A DNA stretch of 64,000 bases, from NCBI GenBank assembly GCA_028868825.1, contig JAGWTU010000005.1:1-64000 (forward strand). Direction: 5' to 3'. Below, in pieces: positions 3,921 through 40,352 of this stretch. Within the stretch, counting starts at the first letter, position 1. Each line of letters opens with the position of its first letter. The notes beneath the pieces are model-generated. The model was not told the DNA's origin, ran no database searches, and was given only the letters and a program-made list of their open reading frames with translations. The stretch is from Burkholderiales bacterium (GTDB lineage Bacteria > Pseudomonadota > Gammaproteobacteria > Burkholderiales > Burkholderiaceae_C). A program made the translations under genes and the position numbers.

Positions 3921-3923
3921 GGG

Positions 3924-6182
3924 TCAGCGGAACGAGGGTCGCACGACGACCGCTCGCGGCGCCTCGGCGGGCGCCTCGACGACCTCGCGCACGGGCCCGA
4001 TCCAGGCCGCCTCGCGCGGCAGCACCGTCTCCTCGAGCCAGCGCTGCAGCGCGTCGGGCGGCAGCGCGCGGCTGAACAGGAAGCCCTGCATGACCTTGCA
4101 GCCCAGGCGCCGCAGCTGCTCCATCTGGCGCAGCGTCTCGACACCCTCGGCGACAACGCGCACGCCCAGCGTGCGCGCCAGGCCGATGATGGCGTTGACG
4201 ACGGCGGCGCTGCTGGGCTTGATGCCGAGCTCGCGGATGAAGCTGATGTCGATCTTGAGCTCGGAGATGGGCATCGTCGTCAGGTAGGACAGGCTGGAAT
4301 AACCGGTGCCGAAGTCGTCGATCGCGATCTCGACGCCGATCTCGTTGAGCCGGTGCAGCGAAGGCAGCACGCCTTCGAGCTCCTTCATCAGGCTGCGCTC
4401 GGTGATCTCGAGCTGGATCGCGCGCGGCCCGACGCCGGACTGGCCGGCGCATTGGTGGATATGTTCGATCAGGTCGGTGCGCTCGAACATCATCGGCGGC
4501 AGGTTGACGGCGATCGAGTCGTTGAAGTCGAAGGCCTCGCGCCACAGCCGCGCCTGGCGCGCCGCCTCGCGCAGCGCCCAGTTCGACAGCGGGACGATGA
4601 GCCCGGTCTCCTCGGCCAGCGGGATGAACTCCATCGGCGGCACCAGCGTGGCGCCGCGCTGCCAGCGCATCAGCGCCTCGACGCCGACCATCTTGCCGAC
4701 CTGCACGTCGACCTTGGGCTGGTAGTGCAGCACCAGTTCGTCGCGCTCGATGGCCTTGTGCAGCGCCGTCTCGAGCTCGAGCTTGGCGCGGCCCTGGCCG
4801 GCGAGCATGGGGCTGAAGATCGCGTGCGCATCCTTGCCCCGCGCCTTCACCGAGTACATCGCGAAATCGGCGTTGCGCAGCAGGTCGACGACCGAGTTGC
4901 CGTCGCGCGGGAACAGCGCCACGCCGATGCTGGCGGTGACGAAGCATTCCTGGCCGCTGACGAAGATCGGCTCGCGCAGCGCGTCGAGCACGCGCTGCGC
5001 GACGCGCTCGGCATCGGCGTCGGACTCGACCTCGGGCAGCAGCGCGACGAACTCGTCGCCGCCGAGGCGGCCGACGGCCTCGAGCGCGCGGTGCGAGCGC
5101 GCGCCGGCAGTCTCGATCGCGCCTTCCATGACCTGGTCGCTGTGGCGCACGCAGGCGCGCAGCCGGCGTCCCACCTCGACGAGCAGTTCGTCGCCGGCGC
5201 CGTGGCCCAGCGTGTCGTTGATGATCTTGAAGCGGTCGAGGTCGATCAGCAGCAGCGCGCATTGGTGCTGCAGCCGCCGTGCCTGCTCGAGCGCGCGCTC
5301 GGCGCGCCAGATCAGCTGGCGGCGGTTCGGCAGCCCGGTGAGGGCGTCGAAGTTCGCCAGCTGCAGGATGCGGTCCTCGGCGACGCGGCGCTCGGTGACG
5401 TCCTGCAGGATGCCGGTGTAGCCGGCGCCATGGCCGAAGTCGTTGAACTCGGGCTCGGCCTCGACGTGGATGACGCGCTGGCGGCCGTCGAGCAGCACCA
5501 GCGGCACGTCGGTGGCCAGCACGGCCGCCTGGCGCAGCGTCTGGTGCAGCTGGCGCATGAAGGCGCGGCGGTCGTCGCGCGGCACCATGCGCAGCAGGCT
5601 GCGCAGGCTGGTCGGCTCGTTGGGGGCGATGCCGAAGACGCGCAGCGCCTCGGGCGACATGATCAGGCCGCCCTCGCCGCGCTCGTTGCGGCGCCAGTCG
5701 AAGCTGCCCATGCGCGCCAGGTCCTGGGCGCGCGCGAGCTTGCTCTTGCTGCGCTCGAGCTCGATGCGCGTGCGCGACGCGCGCAGCAGGTAATGCAGCC
5801 GGCCGGTGAGCAGGCTCCACTGCGTCGACTTGACGAAGAAATCGGTCGCCCCGGCCTCGTAGGCACGCGTGATCGAGGCGTCGTCCTCGAGCCCGGTGAG
5901 CATCAGCACCGGCGTGTTCTCGAGCCCCGGGAGCTTGCGCAGGCGGCGGCAGGTCTCGAAGCCGTCGAGCTCGGGCATCAGCGCGTCGAGCACGACGATG
6001 TCGGGCGTCCAGTCGCGCAGCAGTTCGAGCGCCCGCTCGCCGCCCGAGGCCTCGACCGTCTTGAAGCCGCGCTCGCTCAGCGCGAGCGAGGTCAACAGCA
6101 CGTTGACCTCGTCGTCGTCGACGAGCAGCACCTCGGGCTGCGCGGTGTGGCCGGCGTCGGCGTAGGGTTGCGTGGATGTCAT
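3924..6182 (-). CDS. Response regulator REC-PAS-GGDEF-EAL
   Basis: 752 residues. An N-terminal receiver (about 17-130) has the acidic pair D22/D23, phosphoacceptor D66 in VVLDALMP, T96 and K118. A PAS-like domain (about 155-265) follows, then GGDEF (about 275-460) with GGDEF at 374-378, then EAL (about 470-715) with EAL at 502-504, LEITERS, AIDDFGTGYSS, KIDISF and VVAEGVET. Both catalytic domains look intact, so it could make or break c-di-GMP; a 20-residue loop (VMEGAIETAGARSH) is inserted just before GGDEF. Its ATG overlaps the stop of the upstream Hpt gene as ATGA, so the two are translationally coupled and the Hpt protein is the obvious phosphodonor candidate. Confidence 0.92.
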   Translation of the reverse strand: MTSTQPYADAGHTAQPEVLLVDDDEVNVLLTSLALSERGFKTVEASGGERALELLRDWTPDIVVLDALMPELDGFETCRRLRKLPGLENTPVLMLTGLEDDASITRAYEAGATDFFVKSTQWSLLTGRLHYLLRASRTRIELERSKSKLARAQDLARMGSFDWRRNERGEGGLIMSPEALRVFGIAPNEPTSLRSLLRMVPRDDRRAFMRQLHQTLRQAAVLATDVPLVLLDGRQRVIHVEAEPEFNDFGHGAGYTGILQDVTERRVAEDRILQLANFDALTGLPNRRQLIWRAERALEQARRLQHQCALLLIDLDRFKIINDTLGHGAGDELLVEVGRRLRACVRHSDQVMEGAIETAGARSHRALEAVGRLGGDEFVALLPEVESDADAERVAQRVLDALREPIFVSGQECFVTASIGVALFPRDGNSVVDLLRNADFAMYSVKARGKDAHAIFSPMLAGQGRAKLELETALHKAIERDELVLHYQPKVDVQVGKMVGVEALMRWQRGATLVPPMEFIPLAEETGLIVPLSNWALREAARQARLWREAFDFNDSIAVNLPPMMFERTDLIEHIHQCAGQSGVGPRAIQLEITERSLMKELEGVLPSLHRLNEIGVEIAIDDFGTGYSSLSYLTTMPISELKIDISFIRELGIKPSSAAVVNAIIGLARTLGVRVVAEGVETLRQMEQLRRLGCKVMQGFLFSRALPPDALQRWLEETVLPREAAWIGPVREVVEAPAEAPRAVVVRPSFR

Positions 6183-6580
6183 GGGCGTCTCAGGGACGCC
6201 AGCATAGCGTTAACCGAGGCCGCCGCGCCCCTTCCTTCGCGCAGCAATCGTGCGATCGCCACGCTCGCGTCGGCGGAGGAGCCGGCGGACGCGGCACGCA
6301 GCTCGCGCTCGACCTCGGCCGCGGCGCGCGACAGCGGCATCGCACCGATGCTCGCCGACGAGGACTTGAGCTGGTGCGCCAGCCGCGCCACGGTCTCGAC
6401 GTCGCCGCGGGTGGCCTCGGCCTCGAGCAGCCCGAGGATGCGCAGCAGCGAATTCACGTAGGTCGTCATCACCCGCTCGAGCAGGCCGTGGCGGCCCTGC
6501 GGATCGAGTTCGCGCAGCTTGTCCAGCGCCGCGGGGTCGAGCGCCGCAGGGGTCGGGTCCGGAGCGCCGCTGTCGTTCAT
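6179..6580 (-). CDS. Histidine phosphotransfer (Hpt) protein
   Basis: 133 residues, a single Hpt domain. The phosphorylatable histidine is His69 in ARLAHQLKSSSASIGA, matching the family pattern His-x-Leu-Lys-x4-5-Ile/Leu-Gly-Ala. Such proteins shuttle phosphate between receivers of a phosphorelay. The start is the ATG at 6580, which gives a complete four-helix domain; a much longer open frame upstream is an antisense shadow of the neighbouring kinase. The stop overlaps the start of the REC-PAS-GGDEF-EAL gene by ATGA. The histidine kinase gene diverging at 6776 lacks a receiver, so the kinase feeding this Hpt protein probably needs an extra receiver, here or elsewhere. Confidence 0.88.
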   Translation of the reverse strand: MNDSGAPDPTPAALDPAALDKLRELDPQGRHGLLERVMTTYVNSLLRILGLLEAEATRGDVETVARLAHQLKSSSASIGAMPLSRAAAEVERELRAASAGSSADASVAIARLLREGRGAAASVNAMLASLRRP

Positions 6581-6775
6581 CGGTGATTGGCGAGGGGGGG
6601 AGGGGTCGGGACGTTCCTGGGCCGGAACTCTATTACGTTCAGGCGGCCGGAAGCCTGCCGCTGCACCCTGTTTCGGCGCCCGGCCTGCGAACTTGAATCG
6701 GCGCGCCCGAGCGCGCCGGCCTGCGCGTCCGTGCGGCTGCGTATGGATCCGTACGGGTCCGTAGAATGAGCCGAC

Positions 6776-25113: not shown

Positions 25114-25224
25114 GGTGACCGCACCCGCGGCGTCGAGGATTCCCCGCAGACCCGCTGCACAGCGCCCTCTAGAGTGACTCGGGTCGGGCGTCCGGCCCCC
25201 AGGACGCCGTCAGGGAGCCCCTCC

Positions 25225-26529
25225 ATGCCAGCGCCGCCGGAACGCACCGAAGTCACCGCAGCCCCGCCGCGGATCGCCATCGTCGACGACGACGCTTTCC
25301 AGCGCGAAGTCATGCGCCAGCTGCTGTTCAACCTCGGCCACGACGCGGTCGAGGACTGGCCGTCGGGGGCGTTCGCGTTGCAGCGGCTGGCGCAGATCGA
25401 CAGCGCCCGCATGCTGCTCATCATCGACCTCGAGATGCCCGGCATGGACGGCGTCGAGCTGATGCGCGGCCTCGCCCAGCGGCGCTACGCCGGCGCGATC
25501 GCGCTCATCAGCGTCGTCGGCGGCCGCGTGCTCGAAAGCGCCGTGCGGCTGGCCCGCGAGCATGGCTTCAACGTCGTCGGCCATGCCCGCAAGCCGGCCT
25601 CGCTGCCGATGCTGCGCGCCGTCGTCCAGGCCTGGAGCGAAAGCGCGACCGCGGCGCCGCAGCGACCGCGCCGCAGCTACGGCGTGGCCGAACTGCGGCG
25701 CGCGCTCGTGCAGGACGAGCTGATCCTCGAATACCAGCCGCAGGTGGCCTTGTCCGACGGGCGTTTCGCCGCCGTCGAGGCCCTGGTGCGCTGGCAGCAT
25801 CCTTTCGACGGCGTCGTCGGTCCGGGGGATTTCGTCGAGGACATCGAGGCCCATGGCCTGATCGACGAACTCACCGACCGCGTGCTCGCGCTGGCGCTGG
25901 CCCAGGCCGCGTGCTGGCGCGAGCAGGTGGGCCTGACGCCGCGCATCGCGGTGAACATGTCGATGGACAACCTGTACCGGCTCGACTTCCCCGACCGCCT
26001 GCGCGCCGCGCTGGCGGCACACCGGCTGGGGCCGGCGACGCTGCTGCTCGAACTCACCGAGTCGCGCCTGATGTCGCACCGGGCCGCCTCGATGGACATC
26101 CTGACGCGGCTGCGCCTGCACCATGTCCAGCTCGCGATCGACGATTTCGGCACCGGGCACTCGTCGCTCGCCCAGTTGCGCGACCTGCCCTTCGACGAGC
26201 TCAAGATCGACCGCAGCTTCGTCCACGGCAGCACGCACAGCACGACGCAGCGCGCCATCGTCGCCGCCAGCATCGAGATGGCGCATCTGCTGGGCATGCG
26301 CACGGTCGCCGAGGGCGTCGAGGACGAGGCCGACTGGCTGGCCGTGCGCGCCGCGGGTTGCGATGTCGCGCAGGGCTGGTTCATTGCGCGACCGATGAGC
26401 GGCGCCGCCCTGCCCGCCTGGTGCGCGGAGCGCGAGCAATGGCTGCGCGACGCCGACCCCTATGTCGTCGATTTCGACGAATTTGCGGGGAGTTCTGGAT
26501 CGACGCCGCAGGGAGTTCCTATTCACTAG
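25225..26529 (+). CDS. Response regulator with EAL c-di-GMP phosphodiesterase domain (RocR-like)
   Basis: 434 residues from the ATG at 25225 (ribosome site AGGGAG). The receiver (about 15-135) has D21/D22, phosphoacceptor D68 in LLIIDLEMPGMDG and K123. The EAL domain (about 155-410) carries EAL at 185-187, VNMSMDNL, LLLELTES, AIDDFGTGHSS, LKIDRSF and TVAEGVED, all the metal and loop-6 residues of active phosphodiesterases. There is no DNA-binding domain. The build equals Pseudomonas RocR. It lies 111 bases after the NarL-type regulator and 110 before the hybrid kinase, so phosphate from that kinase could set c-di-GMP level and gene expression together. Confidence 0.92.
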   Translation: MPAPPERTEVTAAPPRIAIVDDDAFQREVMRQLLFNLGHDAVEDWPSGAFALQRLAQIDSARMLLIIDLEMPGMDGVELMRGLAQRRYAGAIALISVVGGRVLESAVRLAREHGFNVVGHARKPASLPMLRAVVQAWSESATAAPQRPRRSYGVAELRRALVQDELILEYQPQVALSDGRFAAVEALVRWQHPFDGVVGPGDFVEDIEAHGLIDELTDRVLALALAQAACWREQVGLTPRIAVNMSMDNLYRLDFPDRLRAALAAHRLGPATLLLELTESRLMSHRAASMDILTRLRLHHVQLAIDDFGTGHSSLAQLRDLPFDELKIDRSFVHGSTHSTTQRAIVAASIEMAHLLGMRTVAEGVEDEADWLAVRAAGCDVAQGWFIARPMSGAALPAWCAEREQWLRDADPYVVDFDEFAGSSGSTPQGVPIH

Positions 26530-26639: not shown

Positions 26640-29600
26640 ATGAGCCTCGAAGCCGCGTCACCGGCCGCGTCACCGGCTGCGCCATCGCCGCGTCCCGGCC
26701 TGCGCGCGGTGCTCTGGCGCCTGATCGGCTGGTCGATGGCGCCGCTGCTGATCCTGGCCGCGCTGCTGGCGCTGGCCGACCTGCGCCACGATTTCGATGC
26801 CAACGATGTCGCGGCCCTGCGCCAGGGCGAGCAATCCGCTCTCGTCATCGACAACGGGCTGGCGCCGGCGATGCAGTCGCTGCGCGTGATCGCCGCATCG
26901 CCCTGGCTCGACGACCCGGCGCGCTGGGCCGATCTGCACCGGCAACTGCAGGCCTTCGAGCGCGCCTTCGGCAGCGCGGTCGTGCTGGGCGACGGCGAGG
27001 GCCGCATGCTGCTGCACAGTGCCCACCCCTACGGCGAGCCGTTGCCGGCCCTGCCGCGGCCGCCCGGCGCCGCCGCGGCGCCGGCGGCGATCGGCAGCGG
27101 CCGCCCGGCGGTCGGCGACGGCTTCGTCGGCCCGCTGTCGCATCGCCTGCAGTTCGCGATCGCCGTGCCGGTCGTGCGCAGCGGTCGACCGACCCTGGTG
27201 CTGCTGACGGTGATCGACGCCGCGCGCATCCAGCAGATCGTCGACCGCCTGCGACTCGACGCCGGCACCACGGTGGTCGTGCGCGACAGCCGCGGCACCG
27301 TGCTCGCGCGGCGCGGCGCCCGCGGCGCCGCCGATGGCGCCGAACCGGGCCGTCGCCTGGCGCTGCCGAGCGCCCCCTGGACCGTCGAGCTGCAGTTCCC
27401 GCGCTCGGCCACCGTCGACCCGCTCGTGCGCACCGCGCTGGCGCTGATCGCGCTGATCGTCGCCGCCACGCTGGCCGGCCTGCTGATGGGCAGCCGCGTC
27501 AGCCGCCGGCTGGCGCGCGACGCGGCCCTGCTGGCCGAGCCGGCGGCCGGCGGCGAACCCGGGATCGCCGAGTTTGCCGCATTGCGTCGGCGCATCGACG
27601 CCGGCGCACGGGAACGCGAAGCGGCGCTGCAGGCGCTGGGCGAGCGCGAGGCGACCTTCAGGACGCTGTTCGACGGCCTGCCCGACGCCGTCGTCTACAC
27701 CGACGCCGAGCGCCGCGTGCGGCTCGTCAATCCGATGTTCAGCACCACCTTCGGCTACGCCGCCGCCGAGATCGTCGGCCGCACGACCGAAGCGATGTAC
27801 GCCGATGCCGGCGACCACGCCAGCATCGGCCGCGAGCACGAAGCCGCCGCCGCCGGCACGCCGCCGCGGACCTACGAGCTGTGCTACCGGCGCAAGGACG
27901 GCGTGCTGTTCTGGGGCGAATCGCGCGTGCTGACCATCCACGGCAGCGGCGGCGAGGTGATCGGTCGGCTCTCGGTGCACCGCGACGTCAGCCTGCGCCG
28001 CCAGGACCGCGAGCGCCTCGCGCGTTCGCAGGCCCAGCTCCACAGCTTCATCCGCCAGGCGCCGAGCTGCATGGCGATCTTCGACCGCCGCATGAACTAC
28101 CTCGCGGTGAGCCAGCGCTGGGTCACCCAGCACGGGCATGGCGCGGACGAACTCGTCGGCCGCCATCATTACGAACTCCTGCCCGACCAGCCCCCGCGCT
28201 GGCGCGAGATCCACCGGCGCGCACTCGCCGGCGAGACGGTGACGGCGGACGCCGACCATTGGCTGCGCGACGACGGCCGCGAGGAATGGCACCGCTGGGC
28301 CGTCGTGCCCTGGACCGACGCGGCCGGTGCGATCGGCGGCATCATCGTCGCGACCGAGGACATCAGCGAGCGCATGCGCGCCGAGCGGGCGCTGCACGAC
28401 GCCCACGAGCGCTTCGCCGGCGTGTTCGAGCACAGCCCGGTCGCCATCGCGATCGGACAGGCCGCGGACGCCCGCTTCATCGAGCTCAATCCGGCCTGGG
28501 AGGCGTTGCTCGGCCACCGCCGCGACGAGGCGATCGGACGCACCGGCGCCGAGCTCGGCATCTGGGTCGACCCGCAGGCCCGCGCAACGATGCTCGAAGC
28601 GGTGCGCGGTGGCCGAGCGCCGCCGACGCTGGAGACGCAGTTCCGGCGCCAGGACGGCCGCATCGTCGACGTCGAGCATTCGGCCTGCCCGATCGAGATC
28701 GGCGGCGTCGCGCACATGATCGCGATGGCCAGCGACATCACGCCGCGCAAGCAGGCGCAGCGCGAACTCGCGGACCAGCGGCAGCAGCTGGCGACGCTCG
28801 TCGAGCAGCGCACGGCCGAGCTCGAGGAGGCCTACCGCTCGCTCGAGGAGAGCGCGCGCTTCAACCGCGCCCTCATCGACAACCTGCCGGTGCGCGTGAG
28901 CTACTGGGACGACGGGCTGCGGCTGCGCTACGCCAACCGGACCTTCCTCGACTGGGTCGGCGCGCCGGCCTGGGCGCTGCTCGGGCGCGGCCTGGCCGAG
29001 ACGCTCGACGCCGAGCAGGCGCGCGTGTGCGAACCGCAGGCCCGCGCCGGCCTCGCGGGCGAGCGCCGGACCTTCGAGTACGCGAGCCGGCGCGACGACC
29101 GGCCCTACGTGCACCAGCTCGTCGTCGTGCCCGACCTGCGCGACGACGCGCCGCCGCACGGCATCTTCGTGATGGCCTTCGACATCACGGCGCTCAAGCA
29201 GGCCGATTCCGAGTTGCGGCGCACCAACGCCGAGCTCATCGCCGCGCGCGACCAGGCCGACGCGGCGAACCGCTCCAAGAGCGCCTTCCTGGCCAATATG
29301 AGCCACGAGATCCGCACGCCGATGAACGCCGTCATCGGCCTGACCTACCTGCTCGAGCGCGACAGCCGCGACGCGCTGCAGCGCGCGCGCCTGGCGAAGA
29401 TCGACGGCGCGGCCAAGCACCTGCTGCACGTCATCAACGACATCCTCGACCTGTCGAAGATCGACGCCGGCAAGCTCGCGCTCGAGCAGATCGAGTTCGC
29501 GCGCGACGAGCTGCTGGGATCGGTGTTCGAGATGGTCGCCCAAGCCGCCGGCGACAAGGGCATCGAGCTGGTCCTCGACGCCGACGAGATGCCCGAACGG

Positions 29601-31238
29601 CTGGTCGGCGACCGCAAGCACCTGGCGCAGGCGCTGATCAACCTGCTGGCCAACGCGGTCAAGTTCACCGATCGCGGCTGGGTGCGCCTGCGTGCCGAAC
29701 GGCTCGCCGAGCAAGGCGCTCGCTCGCTGCTGCGCTTCGAGGTCCGCGACACCGGCATCGGCATCCCGGCGGACCGCCGTGCGGCGCTGTTCAACGATTT
29801 CGAGCAGGTCGATGTCTCGACGACGCGGCGCCATGGCGGCACCGGACTGGGCCTGGCCCTGACGCGCCGGCTGGCCGAGCTGATGGGCGGCGAGGTCGGT
29901 GTCGAGAGCGAACCCGGCCAGGGCAGCGCGTTCTGGTTCACGGCCTGGCTGCAACAAGCCGGGCCGGCGCCGTCGCGGACCGATCCGGCGTCGCTGCGCG
30001 GGCTGCGCGCGCTGCTCGTCGACGACCTCGCCGAGGCGCGGCTCGTCATCGGCGCCCAGCTCGAGCGGCTGGGGCTCGAGGTCGAGGCGCTGAGCGACGG
30101 CGCCCAGACGCTGGCGCGCGTGGAGGCGGCCAGCGCCGCCGGCCGCCACTACGACCTGATGCTGATCGACTGGCGCATGGACGCGATGGACGGCCTCGAG
30201 ACGCTGCGCGCGCTGCGCCGGCTGCTCGGCGACGGCATGCCGCCGGCGATCCTCGTCACCGCCCATGGCGAGGACTCGCTGGGCGAGCAGGCGCGCGCCG
30301 CCGGCTTCGACGCCGTGCTCGCCAAGCCGCCCACGGCCTCGTCGCTGCACGACGCGCTCGTCCAGGCGCTGCGCCGCGGCAGCGACGCGCCGCCGCCGGG
30401 GCCACGGCCGGTCGGCGAGGCCGAGGCCGCGCTGCGCGGCCAACACGCCGGCCGCCGCGTCCTGCTGGCCGAGGACAACCCGGTGAACCAGGAGGTGGCG
30501 CTGGCGCTGCTGACGAATGTCGGCCTCACCGTCGAGGTGGCGGAAGACGGCCGCACCGCAGTCGAGCTGGCCCGCACGCGCGAATACGACCTCGTGCTGA
30601 TGGACATGCAGATGCCCGAGATCGACGGCATCGCCGCGACGCGCGAGATCCGCCGCAGCCTCGGCCAGGCGCTGCCGATCATCGCGATGACCGCGAACGC
30701 CTACGCCGAGGACCGCGAGAGCTGTCTCGCGGCGGGGATGAACGACCATGTCGCCAAGCCGGTCGACCCGCCGGCGTTCTATGCGCTGCTGCTGCGCTGG
30801 CTGCCGCCGCACGGCGGTGCCGGCGCGGCGGCGCCGCAGCCCGCCGACGACAGCGCCGCCTCGCAGCTGCACGAGCGGCTGGCGGGCATCGCCGATCTCG
30901 ACGTCGCGCAGGTGATGCATTTCGTCGGCGGCCGCGGCGAGACGCTCGAGATCGTGCTGCGCAGCTTCGTCAGGAACTACGGCGGCGGCGCGCCGGTGCT
31001 GCTCGAGCCGCCCTGCGCCGAGAACCTGGACGCCTGGCGCGGGGTCTGCCACTCGACGCGCGGCGCCTGTGCCGTCGTCGGCGCCCCCGAGCTCGCACGC
31101 GAGCTCGGGGAGATCGAGAGCGGCGTCGACGCCGGCGCCGCGGCCGTGCATTGGGCCGCGCGCGGGCGCGCGCTGCATGCGCGCTTCCTCGCCCTCGTCC
31201 AGCGCGTCGCGCAGGCGCTGGCCGCCGGCCCGCATTGA
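26640..31238 (+). CDS. Unorthodox hybrid histidine kinase (4 PAS, HisKA, HATPase, 2 REC, Hpt)
   Basis: 1532 residues from the ATG at 26640. TM1 about 28-48, an extracytoplasmic domain, TM2 about 265-287, then four PAS domains (about 330-450, 455-575, 585-705 and 735-860) with a coiled coil (QLATLVEQRTAELEEAY) between the third and fourth. HisKA has His889 in ANMSHEIRTPMN. HATPase has NLLANAVKFTD, DTGIGI and GTGLGLALTRRL. The two receivers have D1177 (LMLIDWRM) and D1322 (LVLMDMQMP). The C-terminal Hpt-like domain has His1471 in CHSTRGACAVVGA. This is a full internal phosphorelay of the BvgS/RocS type. The partners are probably the NarL regulator and REC-EAL protein just upstream. Confidence 0.93.
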   Translation: MSLEAASPAASPAAPSPRPGLRAVLWRLIGWSMAPLLILAALLALADLRHDFDANDVAALRQGEQSALVIDNGLAPAMQSLRVIAASPWLDDPARWADLHRQLQAFERAFGSAVVLGDGEGRMLLHSAHPYGEPLPALPRPPGAAAAPAAIGSGRPAVGDGFVGPLSHRLQFAIAVPVVRSGRPTLVLLTVIDAARIQQIVDRLRLDAGTTVVVRDSRGTVLARRGARGAADGAEPGRRLALPSAPWTVELQFPRSATVDPLVRTALALIALIVAATLAGLLMGSRVSRRLARDAALLAEPAAGGEPGIAEFAALRRRIDAGAREREAALQALGEREATFRTLFDGLPDAVVYTDAERRVRLVNPMFSTTFGYAAAEIVGRTTEAMYADAGDHASIGREHEAAAAGTPPRTYELCYRRKDGVLFWGESRVLTIHGSGGEVIGRLSVHRDVSLRRQDRERLARSQAQLHSFIRQAPSCMAIFDRRMNYLAVSQRWVTQHGHGADELVGRHHYELLPDQPPRWREIHRRALAGETVTADADHWLRDDGREEWHRWAVVPWTDAAGAIGGIIVATEDISERMRAERALHDAHERFAGVFEHSPVAIAIGQAADARFIELNPAWEALLGHRRDEAIGRTGAELGIWVDPQARATMLEAVRGGRAPPTLETQFRRQDGRIVDVEHSACPIEIGGVAHMIAMASDITPRKQAQRELADQRQQLATLVEQRTAELEEAYRSLEESARFNRALIDNLPVRVSYWDDGLRLRYANRTFLDWVGAPAWALLGRGLAETLDAEQARVCEPQARAGLAGERRTFEYASRRDDRPYVHQLVVVPDLRDDAPPHGIFVMAFDITALKQADSELRRTNAELIAARDQADAANRSKSAFLANMSHEIRTPMNAVIGLTYLLERDSRDALQRARLAKIDGAAKHLLHVINDILDLSKIDAGKLALEQIEFARDELLGSVFEMVAQAAGDKGIELVLDADEMPERLVGDRKHLAQALINLLANAVKFTDRGWVRLRAERLAEQGARSLLRFEVRDTGIGIPADRRAALFNDFEQVDVSTTRRHGGTGLGLALTRRLAELMGGEVGVESEPGQGSAFWFTAWLQQAGPAPSRTDPASLRGLRALLVDDLAEARLVIGAQLERLGLEVEALSDGAQTLARVEAASAAGRHYDLMLIDWRMDAMDGLETLRALRRLLGDGMPPAILVTAHGEDSLGEQARAAGFDAVLAKPPTASSLHDALVQALRRGSDAPPPGPRPVGEAEAALRGQHAGRRVLLAEDNPVNQEVALALLTNVGLTVEVAEDGRTAVELARTREYDLVLMDMQMPEIDGIAATREIRRSLGQALPIIAMTANAYAEDRESCLAAGMNDHVAKPVDPPAFYALLLRWLPPHGGAGAAAPQPADDSAASQLHERLAGIADLDVAQVMHFVGGRGETLEIVLRSFVRNYGGGAPVLLEPPCAENLDAWRGVCHSTRGACAVVGAPELARELGEIESGVDAGAAAVHWAARGRALHARFLALVQRVAQALAAGPH

Positions 31239-33283: not shown

Positions 33284-34513
33284 GTGAACCGGCCCCTCAA
33301 GCGACCGCCCGCCGGTCGCGACATCCACGAAGCGCACCGCGCGTCGACGCCGCTCGAGCTGCTGTTCGACCTGTGTTTCGCGATCGGCATCAGCGTCGCG
33401 GCGTCGAACTTCGCCCACGCGGCGGCGCAGGGGCGCATCGGCCACGCGCTGTTCGGCTTCGGCTTCTCGTTCTTCGCCGTCTGGTGGGCCTGGATGAACT
33501 TCACCTGGTACGCCTCGGCCTACGACAACGACGACGGCATCCACCGCCTGCTGACGCTGACGCAGATCCTCGGCGCGCTGATCATGGCCACCGGCATCCC
33601 CGACATCTACGCCGAGACGCCGCGCAACGGCACCGTCGTCGTCGGCTACGCGACGATGCGCGTGGCGCTGGTCGCGATGTGGCTGCGCGCCGCGCGCGGC
33701 GACCCGGCGCGGCGCCGCACCTGCCTGCGCTACGCGACGACGATCGCGCTGCTGCAGTTGGCCTGGATCGCCGGGGCGCTGTTCGTACCCGCCGCCGACT
33801 TGCTGCTGTACTACCCGGTGCTCCTCGTCGCCGAACTCGCGGTGCCGGTGTGGGCCGAGCGTGCCGGCCAGACGCCCTGGCACCCGCACCACATCGCCGA
33901 CCGTTATGCGGCCTTCGCGATCATCGTGCTCGGCGAGGGCCTCGTGGGCACGGTCGCGGCGATCCAGTCGGTGCAGGCCACCGAAGGCTGGTCGTTCGAT
34001 CTCGCGCTGGTCGGCGGCGTCGGCACCGCGCTCACTTTCTGCCTGTGGTGGATCTACTTCATCATCCCGCACGGCGCGGCGCTGGCGGCGCGGCGCGCCG
34101 TCGCGCTGCGCTGGGGCTATGGCAGCGCCTTCGTGTTCGCCTCGCTGGCCGCGATGGGCTCGGGCCTGCACGTGGCCGCCGACGCCATCGGCCACCCGCA
34201 CGCGCATGCGGCGCCGCTGGTGCTGGCGTTGATCGCGCTGCCCATCCTCGTCTTCGAACTCGTCTGCGTCGCCGTCTACGCCGCGCTCGCGGCCTTCGAC
34301 GGTGCGCATCTCGCGCTGGCGCTGTTCAACGCGTTGCAGTTCGCTGCCGTCATCGCCGCGGCCGCCGCCGGCGCGCCCTTCGTCGCCTGCCTCGCGCTGC
34401 TGCTGGCGGGGCCGCTGGCGATCATCGCGTTCGACATCCGCGTCGGCGCCCGGCGCCGCGCCCGCGCGCTGCAGGCGCTGGCCGCCGACGCGAGCGGCCA
34501 CCCCGCGTCCTAG
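33284..34513 (+). CDS. LtrA-family membrane protein
   Basis: 409 residues from a GTG at 33284, 14 bases after the pump gene. Family marks near the N-terminus are STPLELLFDLCFAIGISVAASNFAHA and AVWWAWMNFTWYASAYDNDD; about 11 TM segments follow, with PHHIADRYAAFAIIVLGEGLVG in the middle. LtrA was named after a Listeria low-temperature-requirement mutant; its molecular activity is unknown. Its stop codon shares the four bases CTAG with the stop of the converging kinase gene. The GTG start is chosen because it precedes the conserved region at the usual distance. Confidence 0.88.
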   Translation: MNRPLKRPPAGRDIHEAHRASTPLELLFDLCFAIGISVAASNFAHAAAQGRIGHALFGFGFSFFAVWWAWMNFTWYASAYDNDDGIHRLLTLTQILGALIMATGIPDIYAETPRNGTVVVGYATMRVALVAMWLRAARGDPARRRTCLRYATTIALLQLAWIAGALFVPAADLLLYYPVLLVAELAVPVWAERAGQTPWHPHHIADRYAAFAIIVLGEGLVGTVAAIQSVQATEGWSFDLALVGGVGTALTFCLWWIYFIIPHGAALAARRAVALRWGYGSAFVFASLAAMGSGLHVAADAIGHPHAHAAPLVLALIALPILVFELVCVAVYAALAAFDGAHLALALFNALQFAAVIAAAAAGAPFVACLALLLAGPLAIIAFDIRVGARRRARALQALAADASGHPAS

Positions 34514-37185
34514 ACGGGCGGCGAATCCGCACGGCGACGGCCGCCGCCCTGCGCGCCCTGCTCGTCCTCGATCCAGGCCGCCAGCCCCTGCAGATCGGCG
34601 TTGCGACAGAGCCCGATCGTCTGCTCGGCGAAATCCTGCCAGTCCGGCTCGCGCGCGGCCAACGCCTGCGCCCATTGCTCGATGCGACCGACGAGGCCGA
34701 GTTCGAGCAGTCCGGCGGCCGTCGCGAGCTCGGCGGCATCGGGTCGCGACAGGCGAGCGGGCGTCGCCGGCGGTGGCACCGGCTTGGCGCGCGACGGGCC
34801 CAGCCGCCGCGCGAGGAAACGCTCGACGGCGTCGAAATCGATCGGCTTGCCGAAACAGGCGTCGAAGGCCAGTCCCGGCGCCAGCCCCGGCGGCGGCTGC
34901 GGGCTCGACGCCGAGACCAGCGCCACCGGCAGCGCCGCCAGCGCCGGGTCGGCGCGCAACCGCTCGAGCAGGCCCCAGCCGTCGACGCCGGGCATGAACT
35001 GGTCGACGAGCAGCGCGTCGGGCCGCTCGACCCGGCATTGCTCGAGCGCGGCCTGGCCCTCCTCGGCCTCGACGACGCGGTAGCCCCAGTCCTCGCAGAG
35101 GTCGCGCAGGAACGCGCGGTTGGCGGCGATGTCGTCGACGACCAGCAGCGTCGCCGGCGCCGCCGGCGACGCCGGCGGTGCGCCGATATCCGCGTCGCTC
35201 TCGCGCGGCGGCGGCCCTTCGTCGACGACCGGCAGTTCGAGCGCGAACGAGAAGCGGCTGCCGCGCCCCGGCACGCTGGCGACGTCGAGGCGGCCGCCCA
35301 TCGCCTCGACCCAATGGCGCGCGATCGCCAGCCCGAGCCCGAGCCCGGCGGTGCCGGCGGCCGAGCTGCCGCGCTGGAAGGCTTCGAAGATGCGGCCCAG
35401 CTCGCCGGCTTCGATGCCGCTGCCGGTGTCCTCGACGCCGAAGGCGATGCGGCAGCGCGCAGGCGCCGCCGGCGCCGGCAGCGGCGCAACGACGAGGTCG
35501 ACGCGGCCGGCGCGCGTGTACTTGCAGGCGTTGGCCAGCAGGTTCTGCAGGACCTGCAGCAGCCGCTGCGCGTCGACGCGGACATGGTCGGGCAGTCCGC
35601 CGTCGACGTGGACCTCGAGCGTGTTGCCCGTGGCGCGCGCCATCACGCGGCCGGCGGCCTCGACCTCGGCGACTAATTCGCGCAGGCTCACCGGCGCCGG
35701 CATCAGCTTGGCCTCGCGGCTGTCGACGCTGAATTCGAGCAGGTCGTTGATCAGCCGCTCGAGCTGCACGCCGCTGCGCTCGGCGATCTCGAGCTGGCGC
35801 AGCTGGGCACCGCTGCCGCGCCGGCGCAGCAGCCGCAGATAGCCCAGCAGCGTGTGCACGGGCGTGCGCAGCTCGTGGTTGACGAGCGAGAGGAAGTTGG
35901 TCTTCGCGCGGTTGGCGTCCTCGGCTTCGCGCCGGCGCTCGGCCAGGGCCGCGTTGACGCGCTCGAGGGCGAGCTGGCCGCGCTTGCGCGCGCTGGTGTC
36001 GATGGCGATGGCGAGAAACTGCTCCTGCGGGTCCGGCCCCGGCAGCATCGCCAGCGCCAGGTCGACGGTGCAGCGGGTGCCGTCGCGGCGGCGGTACTCC
36101 TTCTCGTAGGGCATGCACGAGCCCGATGCACGCGCCTGCGCCAGCGCGCGTGCATCGGCCTCGCGGTACTCGGGTGCGGTGAATTCGGTCCAGCGCAGCT
36201 TCCCGCTTTCGAAATCCGCGCGCGTGCAGCCCAGCAGCGCGAGGTAGTGGTCGTTGGCGTAGCTGAGCCGGCCATCGGCGCTGCCGACCGCGATGCCGAC
36301 GATGTTCGCCGCGCTCAGGCGCTCGAAGCGTTCATGCGCCAGCGCGACGGCAGCCTCGGCGCGCTTGCGGTCGGAAATGTCATCGAAGATCAGCGCCACC
36401 TCGTCGGCGCCGGTCCGGCAGGCCGAGATCACGAGCCACTGGGCACGCCGCGGCAGATGGAGCTCGGTGCGCTCGGCGGGGCCGCCGCGCCCGACGCGCG
36501 CCAGCAGCGCCAGCGTCGGCGAGTCGTCCGCGACGAGCTCGGGCCAGACCTCGCCGAGCCGGCGCCCGGCGGCCCGGGCGACGCCGCTCAGCGTCGCGAA
36601 AGCGGCGTTGACGTCGATCAGCTCGAAGTCGGCGGCGCGGCCGCGCTCGAACAGCACCCGGCCCTGGGCCGCGCCGTCCTGCATGTTGTCGAACAGCGCG
36701 CGGTAGCGGCGGTCGCCGGCGATCAGCGCCGCCTGCTGCCGCGAGGCTGCGCTCTGCTCGAGATCCAGGGCCCTCGTCGTGCGCTCGAGCGCGAGCTGAG
36801 CGCGCTTGAAGCGCGTGATGTCGGTGACCAGGAGCTGGAAACCGCAGACGACGCCGCCGTCGATCTCGGGGACGAGCTGCACCCACAGGTGCGCCGCGCC
36901 GCCCTCGGGCCGTCGCAGGCGGTCCTCGAACGCCTGCGGCGTCCCCGCGAGCACACCGGCCAGGCGGCCCTCGAGGCGGGCGCAGGCCTGGCTGCCCAGC
37001 AACTCCTGCAGGTGGCGGCCGACGACGACCTCCGCGCCGCGACCGTAGAACTCGCGCCAGGCCCGGTTGGCGTAGCTGCAGCGCAGATCGCGCGTCCAGT
37101 GCGCGACCATGCCCGGCAAGGGCTCGGCCAGCGCCGGCGGGCGCCGCTGCGGCGCGGCGCCCTGGAGCGGATCGAAGACGGTCAT
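34510..37185 (-). CDS. Hybrid histidine kinase (PAS repeats, HisKA, HATPase, REC)
   Basis: 891 residues from the ATG at 37185. No TM segment is evident, so it is cytoplasmic. Three PAS domains lie at about 15-125, 145-265 and 275-400, then HisKA with His437 in SLVNHELRTPVHTLLG, and HATPase with NLLANACKYTRAG, DTGSGIEAG and GLGLGLAIARHWVEAMGG. The receiver has phosphoacceptor D728 in ALLVDQFMPGVDG. A helical C-terminal tail of about 100 residues has no known domain. Its start overlaps the stop of the REC-AraC gene (ATGA), so the two are one operon and probable partners. The operon diverges from the PYP-like/PAS-GGDEF-EAL operon. Confidence 0.9.
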   Translation of the reverse strand: MTVFDPLQGAAPQRRPPALAEPLPGMVAHWTRDLRCSYANRAWREFYGRGAEVVVGRHLQELLGSQACARLEGRLAGVLAGTPQAFEDRLRRPEGGAAHLWVQLVPEIDGGVVCGFQLLVTDITRFKRAQLALERTTRALDLEQSAASRQQAALIAGDRRYRALFDNMQDGAAQGRVLFERGRAADFELIDVNAAFATLSGVARAAGRRLGEVWPELVADDSPTLALLARVGRGGPAERTELHLPRRAQWLVISACRTGADEVALIFDDISDRKRAEAAVALAHERFERLSAANIVGIAVGSADGRLSYANDHYLALLGCTRADFESGKLRWTEFTAPEYREADARALAQARASGSCMPYEKEYRRRDGTRCTVDLALAMLPGPDPQEQFLAIAIDTSARKRGQLALERVNAALAERRREAEDANRAKTNFLSLVNHELRTPVHTLLGYLRLLRRRGSGAQLRQLEIAERSGVQLERLINDLLEFSVDSREAKLMPAPVSLRELVAEVEAAGRVMARATGNTLEVHVDGGLPDHVRVDAQRLLQVLQNLLANACKYTRAGRVDLVVAPLPAPAAPARCRIAFGVEDTGSGIEAGELGRIFEAFQRGSSAAGTAGLGLGLAIARHWVEAMGGRLDVASVPGRGSRFSFALELPVVDEGPPPRESDADIGAPPASPAAPATLLVVDDIAANRAFLRDLCEDWGYRVVEAEEGQAALEQCRVERPDALLVDQFMPGVDGWGLLERLRADPALAALPVALVSASSPQPPPGLAPGLAFDACFGKPIDFDAVERFLARRLGPSRAKPVPPPATPARLSRPDAAELATAAGLLELGLVGRIEQWAQALAAREPDWQDFAEQTIGLCRNADLQGLAAWIEDEQGAQGGGRRRADSPPV

Positions 37186-38039
37186 CAAAGCGCGCACTCC
37201 ACCGCGTCCGGATCGACGCCATCGATGGCGAGCGCGGCCGGCGCACCGGCGCCGGCGCGTCGGTACTGGCGTGGCCCGACACCGTAGCGGCGGCGGAACG
37301 CGCGCGAGAAGTCGCTGGCGTTGCGGTAGCCGGCGCGGTCGGCGATGAGCTGGATCTGCGTGTCGGCGCGCGCCAGCTCGGCGCGCGCAGCCTCCAGCCG
37401 CAGCTCGATCAGGTACTCCCAGGCCGTCATCCCCAGATGCTTGCGGAACAGCTCGGTGAGCCGCTTCTCGTTCGTGCCGACGCTGCGCGCCAGCGCCTCG
37501 AGACCGGGCCAGCCGGCGCCCTGGCGCTGCAGTTCGGCGACGGCGGCGGTCAGGCAGGAGGCCTCGCGTGCCTCGGACCGGCGCTCGTCCGACAGCCGCC
37601 ATGCGGGTTGGCTCAGGCGCAGGTGCACGAACAGCCGCGCCAGCACCTCCTCGGAGCTGAAGGGCTTGGCGATGTAGTCGACGCCGCCGGCGGCAAAGCC
37701 CTCGAGCTTGTCGGCCAGCGACGTCGCCGCCGAGAGGAAGACCACCGGGATCGCCGCCGTGCGGGGATCGGCCTTGAGGGCACGGCAGACGGCGTAGCCG
37801 TCCATGCCCAGCATCGAGACGTCGAGCAGGATCGCATCGGGGCGGCCGGCGGCGGCCTTGCGGATGCCGTCGGGGCCGTCGAGCGCGACCATCACCTCGA
37901 GCGCCTGACCTTCGAAGTAGTCCAGCAACAGCGCCACCGAGTCGGTGCGATCGTCGACGACGAGCACCCGAGGGCATGGACCCGTCGCCGATACCGGCTG
38001 CGAGACCCGCAGCGGCATGGAATCTGACTTTGACGGCAT
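37185..38039 (-). CDS. Response regulator with AraC-type DNA-binding domain
   Basis: 284 residues. The receiver (about 23-140) has D29/D30, phosphoacceptor D73 in AILLDVSMLGMDG and lysine in DYIAKPFS. The C-terminal AraC domain (about 170-270) has ALARSVGTNEKRLTELFRKH as first helix-turn-helix, then AARAELARADTQIQLIADRAGYRNASDFSRAFRRRYG, the typical second half and signature. REC-AraC proteins are less common in proteobacteria than NarL or OmpR types. It is the first gene of the operon with the hybrid kinase, and its start is 115 bases from the divergent PYP-like gene, whose promoter region it may control. Confidence 0.92.
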   Translation of the reverse strand: MPSKSDSMPLRVSQPVSATGPCPRVLVVDDRTDSVALLLDYFEGQALEVMVALDGPDGIRKAAAGRPDAILLDVSMLGMDGYAVCRALKADPRTAAIPVVFLSAATSLADKLEGFAAGGVDYIAKPFSSEEVLARLFVHLRLSQPAWRLSDERRSEAREASCLTAAVAELQRQGAGWPGLEALARSVGTNEKRLTELFRKHLGMTAWEYLIELRLEAARAELARADTQIQLIADRAGYRNASDFSRAFRRRYGVGPRQYRRAGAGAPAALAIDGVDPDAVECAL

Positions 38040-38154
38040 ACAACTTCAGACTGTTGCCTTTCATACTTTAGTTCAGACTCATTCAGCCTTCAAGACGGTG
38101 AACTGAAATCAACGGCCGCCACAACGGGGCACGAACGGACCGGAGATTCGCGCC
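38040..38154. promoter_or_regulatory. Divergent control region between REC-AraC and PYP-like genes
   Basis: This 115-base gap is clearly A/T-richer than its surroundings. It holds two direct copies of TTCAGACT (38045-38052 and 38072-38079, 27 bases apart) and an inverted pair AGTTCA/TGAACT (38070-38075 and 38099-38104). AraC-type regulators often bind direct repeats two to three helix turns apart, so this is a plausible binding region for the adjacent regulator. I see no clear -35/-10 pair. Confidence 0.5.
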
Positions 38155-38547
38155 ATGAATGTTTCAGACCTGCCCGGCTTCGACGCCGCGGACGCGCTGA
38201 CGCGCATCGCCGAGCTCGCCGACGAGGATTTCGACGCGCTCGATTACGGTGTCATCGCCTTCAATGGCGACGGCATCGTCCTGCGCTACAGCGCCTATGA
38301 GAGCGCGCAGACCGGGCTCGATCCGGCCGAGGTCCGCGGCCTGCACGTGTTCACGTCGCTCGCGCAATGCATGAACAACTATCTCGTGGCGCAGCGCTTC
38401 GAGGACAGCGCCGCCGCCGGCGTGCCGCTGGACGAGACGATCGACTATGTCCTGACCTGGCGCATGCGGCCGACCAAGGTGCGTCTGCGCATGCTCGCGC
38501 GGCCCGGGCTCGCGCAGCGGCTGCTGCTGTTGCGGCATCGCGTCTGA
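38155..38547 (+). CDS. Photoactive yellow protein (PYP)-family PAS protein
   Basis: 130 residues, one PAS domain of the PYP/xanthopsin family. Against Halorhodospira PYP from memory, the key residues line up with a constant offset of +3 and no gap: Tyr45 (Y42), Glu49 (E46), Thr53 (T50) and Cys72 (C69, the thioester site of the p-coumaric acid chromophore); Arg52 is replaced by Leu55. After one inserted residue, Met104 (M100), with RMRPTKV, matches YQMTPTKV. The N-terminal cap LDYGVIAFNGDGIVLRYSAYES is also conserved. It sits 14 bases before a PAS-GNDEF-EAL gene. Whether it binds a chromophore is unknown; no tyrosine ammonia-lyase or coumarate ligase gene is seen in the window. Confidence 0.82.
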   Translation: MNVSDLPGFDAADALTRIAELADEDFDALDYGVIAFNGDGIVLRYSAYESAQTGLDPAEVRGLHVFTSLAQCMNNYLVAQRFEDSAAAGVPLDETIDYVLTWRMRPTKVRLRMLARPGLAQRLLLLRHRV

Positions 38548-38561
38548 GGGCCCCGACCCAG

Positions 38562-40352
38562 ATGCCCGCCACCGCCATCGAGCTCCGATCGCCGGGCATC
38601 GACTACGCGCGCGAGTACCGGGCGCTGCTGAGCTTCCTCTACCAGGCGCCGTTCGGCCTCATGCAGATCGCGCCCGATGGCGCGATCGAGATGATCACGC
38701 CGGCGGCGGCCCGGCTGCTGCTGGCGCTGGCGGCCCGACCCGAACTCGACAACCTCTACACCGCGCTGGCCGACGTGGCGCCGCAGCTGCCGCGGCTCGT
38801 CCGCGAATACCGCGGGCCCTCGGGTGCCCTGTGCGAGGCATTGCGCTTTGCCCTGCCGGCGGGCAGCCTCGGCCCCGAAGCCAGCGTGCTGACACTGACG
38901 CTGACGAAGGTCGGCCCGCAGATGCTGATGGCCGTGCTCAACGATGTCACGAACGAGGTCCGGCGCGAACAGCGCGACCTCGACCAGCGCCTGACCGACC
39001 TCTCGCGCACCGATGCACTCACCGGGCTGCCCAACCGCGCGGTCGCCATCGAGCGCCTGCAGCGCCTGATCGATGCCCGGCGCGAGGATGAATCGACGCC
39101 ACCGTTCGCGCTCATCCTCGTCAATATCGACCGCTTCCACCAGGTCAACGACAGCCTGGGACATGCCGCCGGCGACGAGATCCTGCGCCTGCTCGCGGCG
39201 CGCCTGAACACCCAGCTGCGCCGCCATGTGCGCGACGACGGCGCGTCCGCGCCGGCCGTGGTGGCGACGCGCGTCGGCAACGACGAGTTCGCCATCGTCG
39301 TCGACGACCTGCGCCGCTCCGACGACATCCACGGCATCGCGATGCGGCTGCTCGACGTCGTGGCGCAGCCCTTCGGCGTCGGCGAGCAGCAGCTGCACGT
39401 GCGCGTCAGCGCCGGCATCGTGCTCGCGGCACAGGCGGCCCGCACCGGCGTCGAGATGCTCAACGACGCGAACATCGCGGTCAACGAGTCGCGGCGCGCC
39501 GGCCGCGGCCGCTACGCCGTCTTCGAGCCCTCGATGCGCGAGCGCGCGGCCAGCCGCGGCCTCATCGAGGAGGGCCTGCGCGGCGCGCTCGAGCGCCACG
39601 AGCTCTACGTCGTCTACCAGCCCGTCGTCGAGCTCGGCGAGGAAGGCGACGCCTTGCGCTGCACCGGGGTCGAGGCGCTGGTGCGCTGGCTGCACCCGCA
39701 GCGCGGCATCGTGCCGCCCATCGAATTCATCGGCATCGCCGAGGACAGCGGGCTCATCGGCGACCTCGGGCGCCACGTGCTGGCCATCGCCTGCGAGCAG
39801 TTCATGCGCTGGCGCGCGCGGCTCGGCGATCGCGCCCCGGGGACGCTGGCGGTCAACGTCTCGCGGGCCCAGCTCTTCCTGCCCGACCTCGTCGACATGG
39901 TCCGCGACACGATGTGCAGCACCGAGATGCCACCGGGCTGCCTGCAGCTCGAGATCACCGAGAGCATGGCCGCCGAGGACGACGAGGTGCGCGTGGCGCT
40001 GGCCGAGCTGAAGGCACTCGGAGTCTCGCTGGCGCTGGACGATTTCGGCACCGGCTATTCATCGCTGTCGAGCCTGCACCGGCTGCCGGTGGACCTGGTG
40101 AAGATCGACCGCAGCTTCGTCAGCCAGGTCGATTCCAGCAACTACCACCGCGTGCTCGTGGAAGCCACGGTGCAGGTCGCGCGCAGCCTCGATCTGGGCA
40201 CGGTAGCCGAGGGCATCGAGACCGAGTCGCAGGCGCGGCTGGTGCGCCAGCTCGGCTGCGAGAAGGGCCAGGGCTACCTGTACTCGACGCCGCTGACCGC
40301 GCCCGCGCTCGAGGCCTGGCTGGCGACCGGCGCCTGCGCCGCACTGCCATAG
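38562..40352 (+). CDS. PAS-GGDEF(degenerate)-EAL protein, likely c-di-GMP phosphodiesterase
   Basis: 596 residues. The N-terminal PAS-like domain (about 18-130, FLYQAPFGLMQIAPDGAIEMI) leads by a coiled coil into a GGDEF domain (about 145-325) whose motif reads GNDEF (239-243), with the rest of the fold (LTGLPNRA, DRFHQVNDSLGHAAGDE) retained. The EAL domain (about 330-590) is intact: EAL at 371-373, AVNVSRAQ, LEITES, ALDDFGTGYSS, VKIDRSF and TVAEGIET. It probably breaks down c-di-GMP, with the GNDEF domain as a GTP sensor or weak cyclase. It is the second gene of the PYP-like operon, and a direct contact of the two PAS domains is plausible. Its 3' end overlaps the next, converging gene by 79 bases. 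Confidence 0.9.
   Translation: MPATAIELRSPGIDYAREYRALLSFLYQAPFGLMQIAPDGAIEMITPAAARLLLALAARPELDNLYTALADVAPQLPRLVREYRGPSGALCEALRFALPAGSLGPEASVLTLTLTKVGPQMLMAVLNDVTNEVRREQRDLDQRLTDLSRTDALTGLPNRAVAIERLQRLIDARREDESTPPFALILVNIDRFHQVNDSLGHAAGDEILRLLAARLNTQLRRHVRDDGASAPAVVATRVGNDEFAIVVDDLRRSDDIHGIAMRLLDVVAQPFGVGEQQLHVRVSAGIVLAAQAARTGVEMLNDANIAVNESRRAGRGRYAVFEPSMRERAASRGLIEEGLRGALERHELYVVYQPVVELGEEGDALRCTGVEALVRWLHPQRGIVPPIEFIGIAEDSGLIGDLGRHVLAIACEQFMRWRARLGDRAPGTLAVNVSRAQLFLPDLVDMVRDTMCSTEMPPGCLQLEITESMAAEDDEVRVALAELKALGVSLALDDFGTGYSSLSSLHRLPVDLVKIDRSFVSQVDSSNYHRVLVEATVQVARSLDLGTVAEGIETESQARLVRQLGCEKGQGYLYSTPLTAPALEAWLATGACAALP

Follow-up and report, generated by a model that had tools for sequence, protein, structure and literature searches.

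PYP is a model photoreceptor, and its occurrence beside c-di-GMP genes is already known: PYPs neighboring GGDEF/EAL genes were published as clade C, the members of which were proposed to modulate the adjacent GGDEF/EAL proteins (PMC9664959), and among 113 predicted pyp operons GGDEF was recorded in 29 and EAL in 22 (PMC12826048). Furthermore, binding of the Idiomarina loihiensis PYP to the c-di-GMP enzyme encoded next to it, with an effect on biofilm, was proposed (cited in PMC9664959). The signal relay from single-domain PYPs was described as unknown in 2022 (PMC9664959), and the signaling partner of H. halophila PYP was still called unidentified in an abstract from 2026 (PMC13250908). A receiver domain common to PYP neighbors was not encountered in the PYP literature searched, which consisted of openly accessible article text, titles and abstracts. 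The part not found in this literature is the probable coupling element reported here, a domain of predicted PAS fold referred to as RCV.

The analyzed DNA, referred to as the window, is a stretch of 64,000 nt from Burkholderiales bacterium GCA_028868825.1 (contig JAGWTU010000005.1, positions 1-64,000, forward strand). Features of the pyp locus are compiled in Table 1. The RCV profile did not match the receiver-AraC and hybrid kinase gene regions of the table. Elsewhere in the window, the regions 2223-6209 (-), 25114-26526 (+) and 27003-31235 (+) encode GGDEF, REC-GGDEF-EAL and REC-EAL proteins and a large PAS hybrid kinase.

Table 1. Features of the pyp locus within the window (positions counted from the first nucleotide of the window).
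Feature	Position	Strand	Basis
PAS-rich hybrid histidine kinase, after the receiver-AraC gene	34513..37290	-	domains
Receiver-AraC response regulator, divergent from pyp	37185..38039	-	domains
Interval from pyp to the divergent REC-AraC gene, 115 bp, putative promoter region	38040..38154	.	ORF coordinates
pyp homolog, clade-C type, 130 aa	38155..38547	+	ORF, PDB-sequence phmmer, alignment, AF2, tree
Cys72 codon TGC, counterpart of chromophore cysteine Cys69	38368..38370	+	sequence and alignment
Spacer between pyp and partner gene, 14 nt	38548..38561	+	sequence
Partner gene, RCV-GNDEF-EAL protein, 596 aa	38562..40352	+	ORF, Pfam, motifs
RCV domain, PAS fold by prediction, unmatched by Pfam, candidate receiver of PYP	38613..38981	+	profile, AF2
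GGDEF domain reading GNDEF, no RxxD I-site in the stretch examined	39009..39509	+	Pfam span, motif
EAL domain	39576..40292	+	Pfam span, motifs

The product of the window's pyp gene is a PYP homolog. Each of the 33 matches obtained with phmmer against PDB sequences (E 1e-3) was a PYP, a derivative of PYP (FAST) or the PYP domain of Ppr, the best of them reaching an E-value of 6e-15. The first-pass annotation had recognized PYP residues in Tyr45, Glu49, Thr53, Cys72 and a methionine, and their register was borne out by phmmer and by multiple alignment: Y45/E49/T53/C72/M104 align to PYP Y42/E46/T50/C69/M100, and in the alignment with characterized PYPs that had been suggested along with this reading Cys72 falls on Cys69. 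The numbering offset is 3 through C72 and grows to 4 at the methionine because of a one-residue insert. The AF2 model (36-row alignment, pLDDT 93.3) retrieved exclusively PYPs among the top 25 rows of a comparison with the PDB, at TM values of 0.86-0.92 and an rmsd of 1.6-1.8.

Residue conservation was evaluated in an alignment of 121 sequences comprising the window PYP, its paralog and 119 of 157 database relatives (the best 120 of 157, the window PYP being among these). Among the 121 sequences, position 50 is occupied by Thr in 43, Ala in 47 and Ser in 31. The replacement of Arg52 by Leu, pointed out earlier, is correct and unremarkable, as Leu occupies this position in 113 of the 121 aligned sequences (best 120 of 157 relatives) and also represents the published PYP consensus (PMC12826048). 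In the window PYP, Ile, Leu and Leu take the places of H. halophila Phe92, Phe96 and Trp119, respectively, and Met100 is retained. Against the NCBIfam model TIGR02373 photo_yellow, the protein scored 61.4 bits (E 8e-17), below the cut-off of 143.05; coverage of PYP homologs by this model was given as 20% (PMC9664959). Based on residue and neighbor features (Met100 present, Phe92/Phe96/Trp119 absent, GGDEF neighbor), the window PYP resembles the published clade C, the published sequences of which lie outside the tree described below.

Both open reading frames of the gene pair and the 14-base gap between them were recovered as initially annotated. The description of the partner as a PAS-GNDEF-EAL protein likewise holds, with GGDEF (E 2e-30) and EAL (E 2e-65) assigned by Pfam and the N-terminal PAS domain by predicted fold. 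The EAL domain contains the motifs EALVRW, VNVS, LEITES, DDFGTG, VKID, AEGIE and GQGY, which we take to be the catalytic set of EAL c-di-GMP phosphodiesterases, and is predicted to be such an enzyme. GNDEF replaces the GGDEF/GGEEF motif in the window partner, its paralog and L021, and the RxxD motif of the I-site is missing from the stretch examined of the window domain (Table 1); this domain is likely not a cyclase. Since the EAL motif set is complete and the GGDEF domain reads GNDEF, the expected output of the window protein is c-di-GMP breakdown.

The N-terminal domain of the partner, approximately 125 residues in length and here termed RCV, escapes Pfam: in a scan of 24 RCV domains (E 0.01), none matched any model. 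Its AF2 model shows PAS topology (pLDDT 91.6), and membership of RCV in the PAS superfold is predicted on this structural basis. A natural PYP-RCV fusion was not found among 124 RCV proteins (4 plus the best 120 of 746). Two 729-residue proteins (P0132, P0133) feature two RCV-like domains in tandem followed by GGDEF-EAL. At two loci, belonging to Ideonella azotifigens and Sphaerotilus hippei, RCV is located at the C-terminus of the partner and not at its N-terminus (L015 4334-4681 (-), L024 7206-7538 (+)).

Co-occurrence of RCV and PYP was evaluated in several genome samples. In the order sample (399 genomes; PYP profile at 1e-12, RCV profile at 1e-8), PYP was detected in 12 and RCV in 11 genomes, and these 11 were exactly the 11 genomes featuring the window's PYP type. 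The twelfth PYP genome, G125, encodes four distant PYPs only. These are arranged as two tandem pairs within approximately 3.5 kb (L085, G125:C1:127000-144000), none of them with RCV. Of the 23 RCV copies, 22 were located within 2 kb of a window-type PYP, one pair (G164) being broken by a contig end. The remaining copy, the RCV-GGDEF gene L082 (G164:C41; 77 bits), is unlinked, shows an altered active-site motif and resides in a genome encoding PYP elsewhere.

Within the family sample, consisting of 185 genomes of one family and overlapping the order sample (5 RCV genomes and some others in common), RCV was detected in 37 and PYP in 36 genomes, and all 36 PYP genomes also encode RCV. One genome of this sample, G826, harbors an RCV-GGDEF gene without a PYP match in the genome. 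When the two samples were pooled, RCV was matched at 1e-8 in 43 genomes, and 42 of these encode a window-type PYP. Moreover, 39 of the 40 window-type PYP genes of the family sample are followed by a same-strand RCV start 30-88 nt downstream, and the fortieth is located at a contig end; among 11 distant PYP genes from 11 of the same family-sample genomes, none had RCV downstream. The majority of RCV copies (65 of 72) lie within 5 kb of a window-type PYP. Six of the other seven, namely L112, L113 and four RCV-GGDEF-EAL genes located elsewhere, were found in genomes with window-type PYP. The L113 copy is placed at a contig end, and in L112 a short PYP remnant of 25 bits (6589-6705 (-)) directly precedes the RCV-GGDEF gene, an arrangement suggestive of pyp decay with retention of the partner.

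Further datasets were also screened. Among 72,556 plasmid records (1e-5), PYP was detected in 13 and RCV in 11, all 11 being included in the 13. Of the two plasmids without RCV, one belongs to Niveispirillum, and its PYP (77 bits) is of the other kind. The second, CP099603.1 (L086), carries a window-type PYP; RCV was absent from the 5 kb flanking this gene on each side, and tblastn yielded no RCV match on the plasmid. Next to this PYP are a BLUF gene and a PAS protein of 1368 residues, which possibly represent another partner. In the phylum sample (398 genomes, RCV at 1e-6), four genomes matched RCV, two of them weakly (33 and 31 bits) and in genomes in which no PYP was found; TIGR02373 at 1e-8 matched five of the 398 genomes, three of these matches lying in open frames of approximately 900 residues in genomes without an RCV match. 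Furthermore, among gathered loci, which were picked for having PYP and include near-copies (SBC1/SBC2, L025/L026), RCV follows downstream on the same strand for 35 of 37 PYP genes with a score of at least 120 bits. The exceptions are L015, with RCV in a divergent neighbor, and L086. Of the ten PYP genes scoring below 120 bits, only that of L083, broken by a contig end, adjoins RCV; at L090, L091 and L096, RCV is located 3-4 kb from the low-scoring PYP, beside a second, high-scoring PYP.

The adjacency of pyp and RCV spans Beta- and Alphaproteobacteria, Spirochaetota MAGs and MAGs labelled Geobacteraceae. PYP and RCV distances are correlated (r 0.72, 34 pairs), a value that cannot show contact because linked genes share history. 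In the samples searched, RCV appears near-exclusive to the company of one PYP branch.

The enzymes attached to RCV are diverse. The RCV-GNDEF-EAL architecture is represented by the window protein, the host paralog and L021, and in L016 additional PAS domains are inserted between RCV and GGDEF-EAL. The order pyp, RCV-GGDEF, RCV-GGDEF-EAL was observed in L072-L075, and in L077 and L078 RCV-GGDEF-EAL is followed by an RCV-kinase. RCV kinases with HisKA and/or HATPase domains occur in L017-L020, L022, L023 and L025, and L024, one of the C-terminal RCV cases, is a HisKA_3 kinase. Since RCV outputs vary among GGDEF, GGDEF-EAL, HisKA and HisKA_3, it is the domain, not one enzyme, that accompanies PYP. 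The first-pass annotation had made its reading depend on a conserved neighborhood with the EAL gene; the adjacency is indeed conserved, but its constant part is RCV, which recurs across cyclases, phosphodiesterases and kinases, and not EAL.

A tree of 45 PYPs was calculated, comprising 36 of the RCV-linked branch and nine of the other kind, including H. halophila PYP. Both groups are split by one branch with a support of 100/99, for which a long-branch warning applies on both sides. L086 is nested inside the 36-member RCV-linked branch. A second gene set consisting of pyp, RCV and GNDEF-EAL is present in the host genome (G000:C57); its PYP shows 60% identity to the window PYP and groups with that of MAG REEB41 (L021; support 100/96), not with the window copy. 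Because of this grouping, a recent duplication as the origin of the two host pairs looks unlikely. Both PYP kinds were found within a few kb on plasmids (L090, L091 and L096, and L089 by annotation), the other-kind PYP scoring 74-77 bits. In public records, PYPs of the RCV-linked branch are masked by the name 'phosphonate transporter' (L086, L087, L089, L090, L092, L096).

Seventeen positions are specific for the RCV-linked branch, being kept in at least 90% of the 121 sequences (best 120 of 157 relatives) and shared by no more than 2 of 10 PYPs from outside the branch: 33, 52, 68, 70, 72, 75, 76, 77, 81, 89, 93, 96, 97, 99, 107, 108 and 110 in H. halophila numbering. Six of them cluster at 68-77 around the chromophore cysteine, and this segment is a candidate docking patch for RCV. 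In window numbering, branch-specific residues ascribed to the patch are Asn75, Val78, Gln80 and Arg112. Others of the seventeen, such as position 96, belong instead to the chromophore pocket (PMC12826048).

Based on the PYP residues, the co-occurrence and the gene linkage, a split blue-light switch is proposed for the gene pair and considered quite probable: by docking on RCV, the domain of predicted PAS fold, PYP would control how active the predicted EAL phosphodiesterase is. Points that count against this reading are the lack of a natural fusion among the RCV proteins inspected, the RCV genome G826, the window-type PYP of CP099603.1, the two weak RCV-like matches of the phylum sample, the altered unlinked copy L082, the negative search for TAL and a dedicated coumarate ligase in the host genome (see below) and the replaced aromatic residues. 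In this switch, p-coumarate would be carried by PYP on Cys72, and its isomerization by blue light would alter the PYP surface. The altered surface may change the PAS-PAS contact with RCV, the C-terminal helix of which could relay the change to GNDEF-EAL. As judged from the linkage data, RCV is likely the PYP receiver. On balance, the results also lean toward RCV being a dedicated PYP-reading PAS family, a socket moved among cyclases, phosphodiesterases and kinases, with one PYP driving opposing enzymes in a push-pull manner. In operons with two outputs, in which RCV is common to a GGEEF and a GGDEF-EAL protein, one PYP could steer both; that the two enzymes respond oppositely is a guess.

RCV could instead sense some other signal in the manner of ordinary PAS domains, PYP and RCV forming a co-transcribed and co-inherited light-plus-ligand module without contact. 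PAS domains are often ligand binders, and such a function would suit both the closest solved folds to the RCV model, which are generic PAS and LOV domains, and the presence of one cysteine conserved in 94% of 169 RCV rows. However, this cysteine is absent from L020, L022, L023, L025, L026 and L037, and a free-standing sensor would be expected to occur without PYP too, yet a single genome of the pooled order and family samples with an RCV match lacked the window-type PYP, and even the four unlinked RCV-GGDEF-EAL genes sit in PYP-bearing genomes. An independent sensory role of RCV is thus rated as unlikely.

A second alternative concerns the light sensor itself, namely that the window PYP homolog receives no chromophore and acts as an apo-PAS adaptor or binds another ligand. 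The first-pass annotation had suggested a search of the host genome for tyrosine ammonia-lyase (TAL) and p-coumarate ligase (pCL), and neither was found with PF00221 and TIGR02372: the genome, 98.5% complete, contains a single PF00221 (aromatic amino acid lyase) match, which looks like HutH, with no TAL beyond it, and no TIGR02372 match to a dedicated coumarate ligase above the cut-off, the Caballeronia ligase as query yielding a best match of 42 bits. General CoA ligases or uptake may nevertheless provide the chromophore. The substitution of several aromatic residues near the chromophore points in the same direction. On the other hand, Tyr42, Glu46 and Cys69 are conserved in all 121 aligned sequences (best 120 of 157 relatives), and an AMP-binding gene adjoins a window-type PYP or is located one gene from it in Caballeronia sp. 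M1242, Sphingomonas insulae and Methylobacterium sp. FF17. In Indioceanicola profundi, a run of genes consists of an other-kind pyp, pcl, an aromatic ammonia-lyase gene, the window-type PYP gene and a GGDEF gene, the last four overlapping by their end bases; Pfam confirmed the Caballeronia sp. M1242 ligase and the Indioceanicola profundi lyase. Moreover, absence of TAL and pCL near pyp is usual, because these genes were recorded in only 5% and 32% of published pyp operons, respectively (PMC12826048). A PYP without light-sensing function is accordingly regarded as distinctly improbable. Finally, a chance placement of a PAS protein beside a GGDEF-EAL gene, for which the presence of other GGDEF, EAL and kinase genes within the window might speak in a genome rich in both, is contradicted by the adjacency counts across Beta- and Alphaproteobacteria, Spirochaetota and Geobacteraceae-labelled MAGs and has a negligible probability.

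If RCV is the PYP socket, as favored here, it would serve an entire branch of stand-alone PYPs as their natural partner domain, and it would explain how one PYP branch may serve c-di-GMP as well as phosphorelay pathways. RCV accompanies this branch across several bacterial classes irrespective of the output enzyme and provides a testable answer to an old signaling question. Furthermore, it offers a direct binding test, a mutable docking surface and possibly a light-controlled pair of parts, each of approximately 125 residues, for optogenetics.

Compared with described systems, the locus is closest to the clade C PYPs of Xing, Gumerov and Zhulin 2022 (PMC9664959), with which it shares membership in a Burkholderiales-rich branch, frequent GGDEF neighbors and the combination of a retained Met100 with the loss of the three aromatic residues. 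In the available text of that account, neighbors are named only by their output domain, whereas the neighbor is defined here by RCV, and the output is sometimes a histidine kinase. GGDEF/EAL genes beside pyp are also a feature of the inferred operons of Dohmen et al. 2025 (PMC12826048), according to whom information is insufficient to explain the associations mechanistically; in contrast to the present findings, the text available does not mention an N-terminal domain common to the neighbors. The Idiomarina loihiensis PYP similarly stands alone with an adjacent GGDEF protein, but belongs to clade A (cited in PMC9664959). In Ppd, the PYP-phytochrome-GGDEF/EAL fusion of Thermochromatium tepidum (cited in PMC12826048), PYP likewise serves as blue-light input to a c-di-GMP enzyme; unlike this single polypeptide with phytochrome, the window proteins are separate and lack an intervening phytochrome. 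CetA/CetB of Campylobacter jejuni (cited in PMC9664959) resemble the proposed pair in that a PAS protein standing alone passes its signal to another protein that provides the output; they differ in representing a FAD redox sensor and a chemoreceptor, and the passage citing them mentions no RCV-type PAS domain in the output protein.
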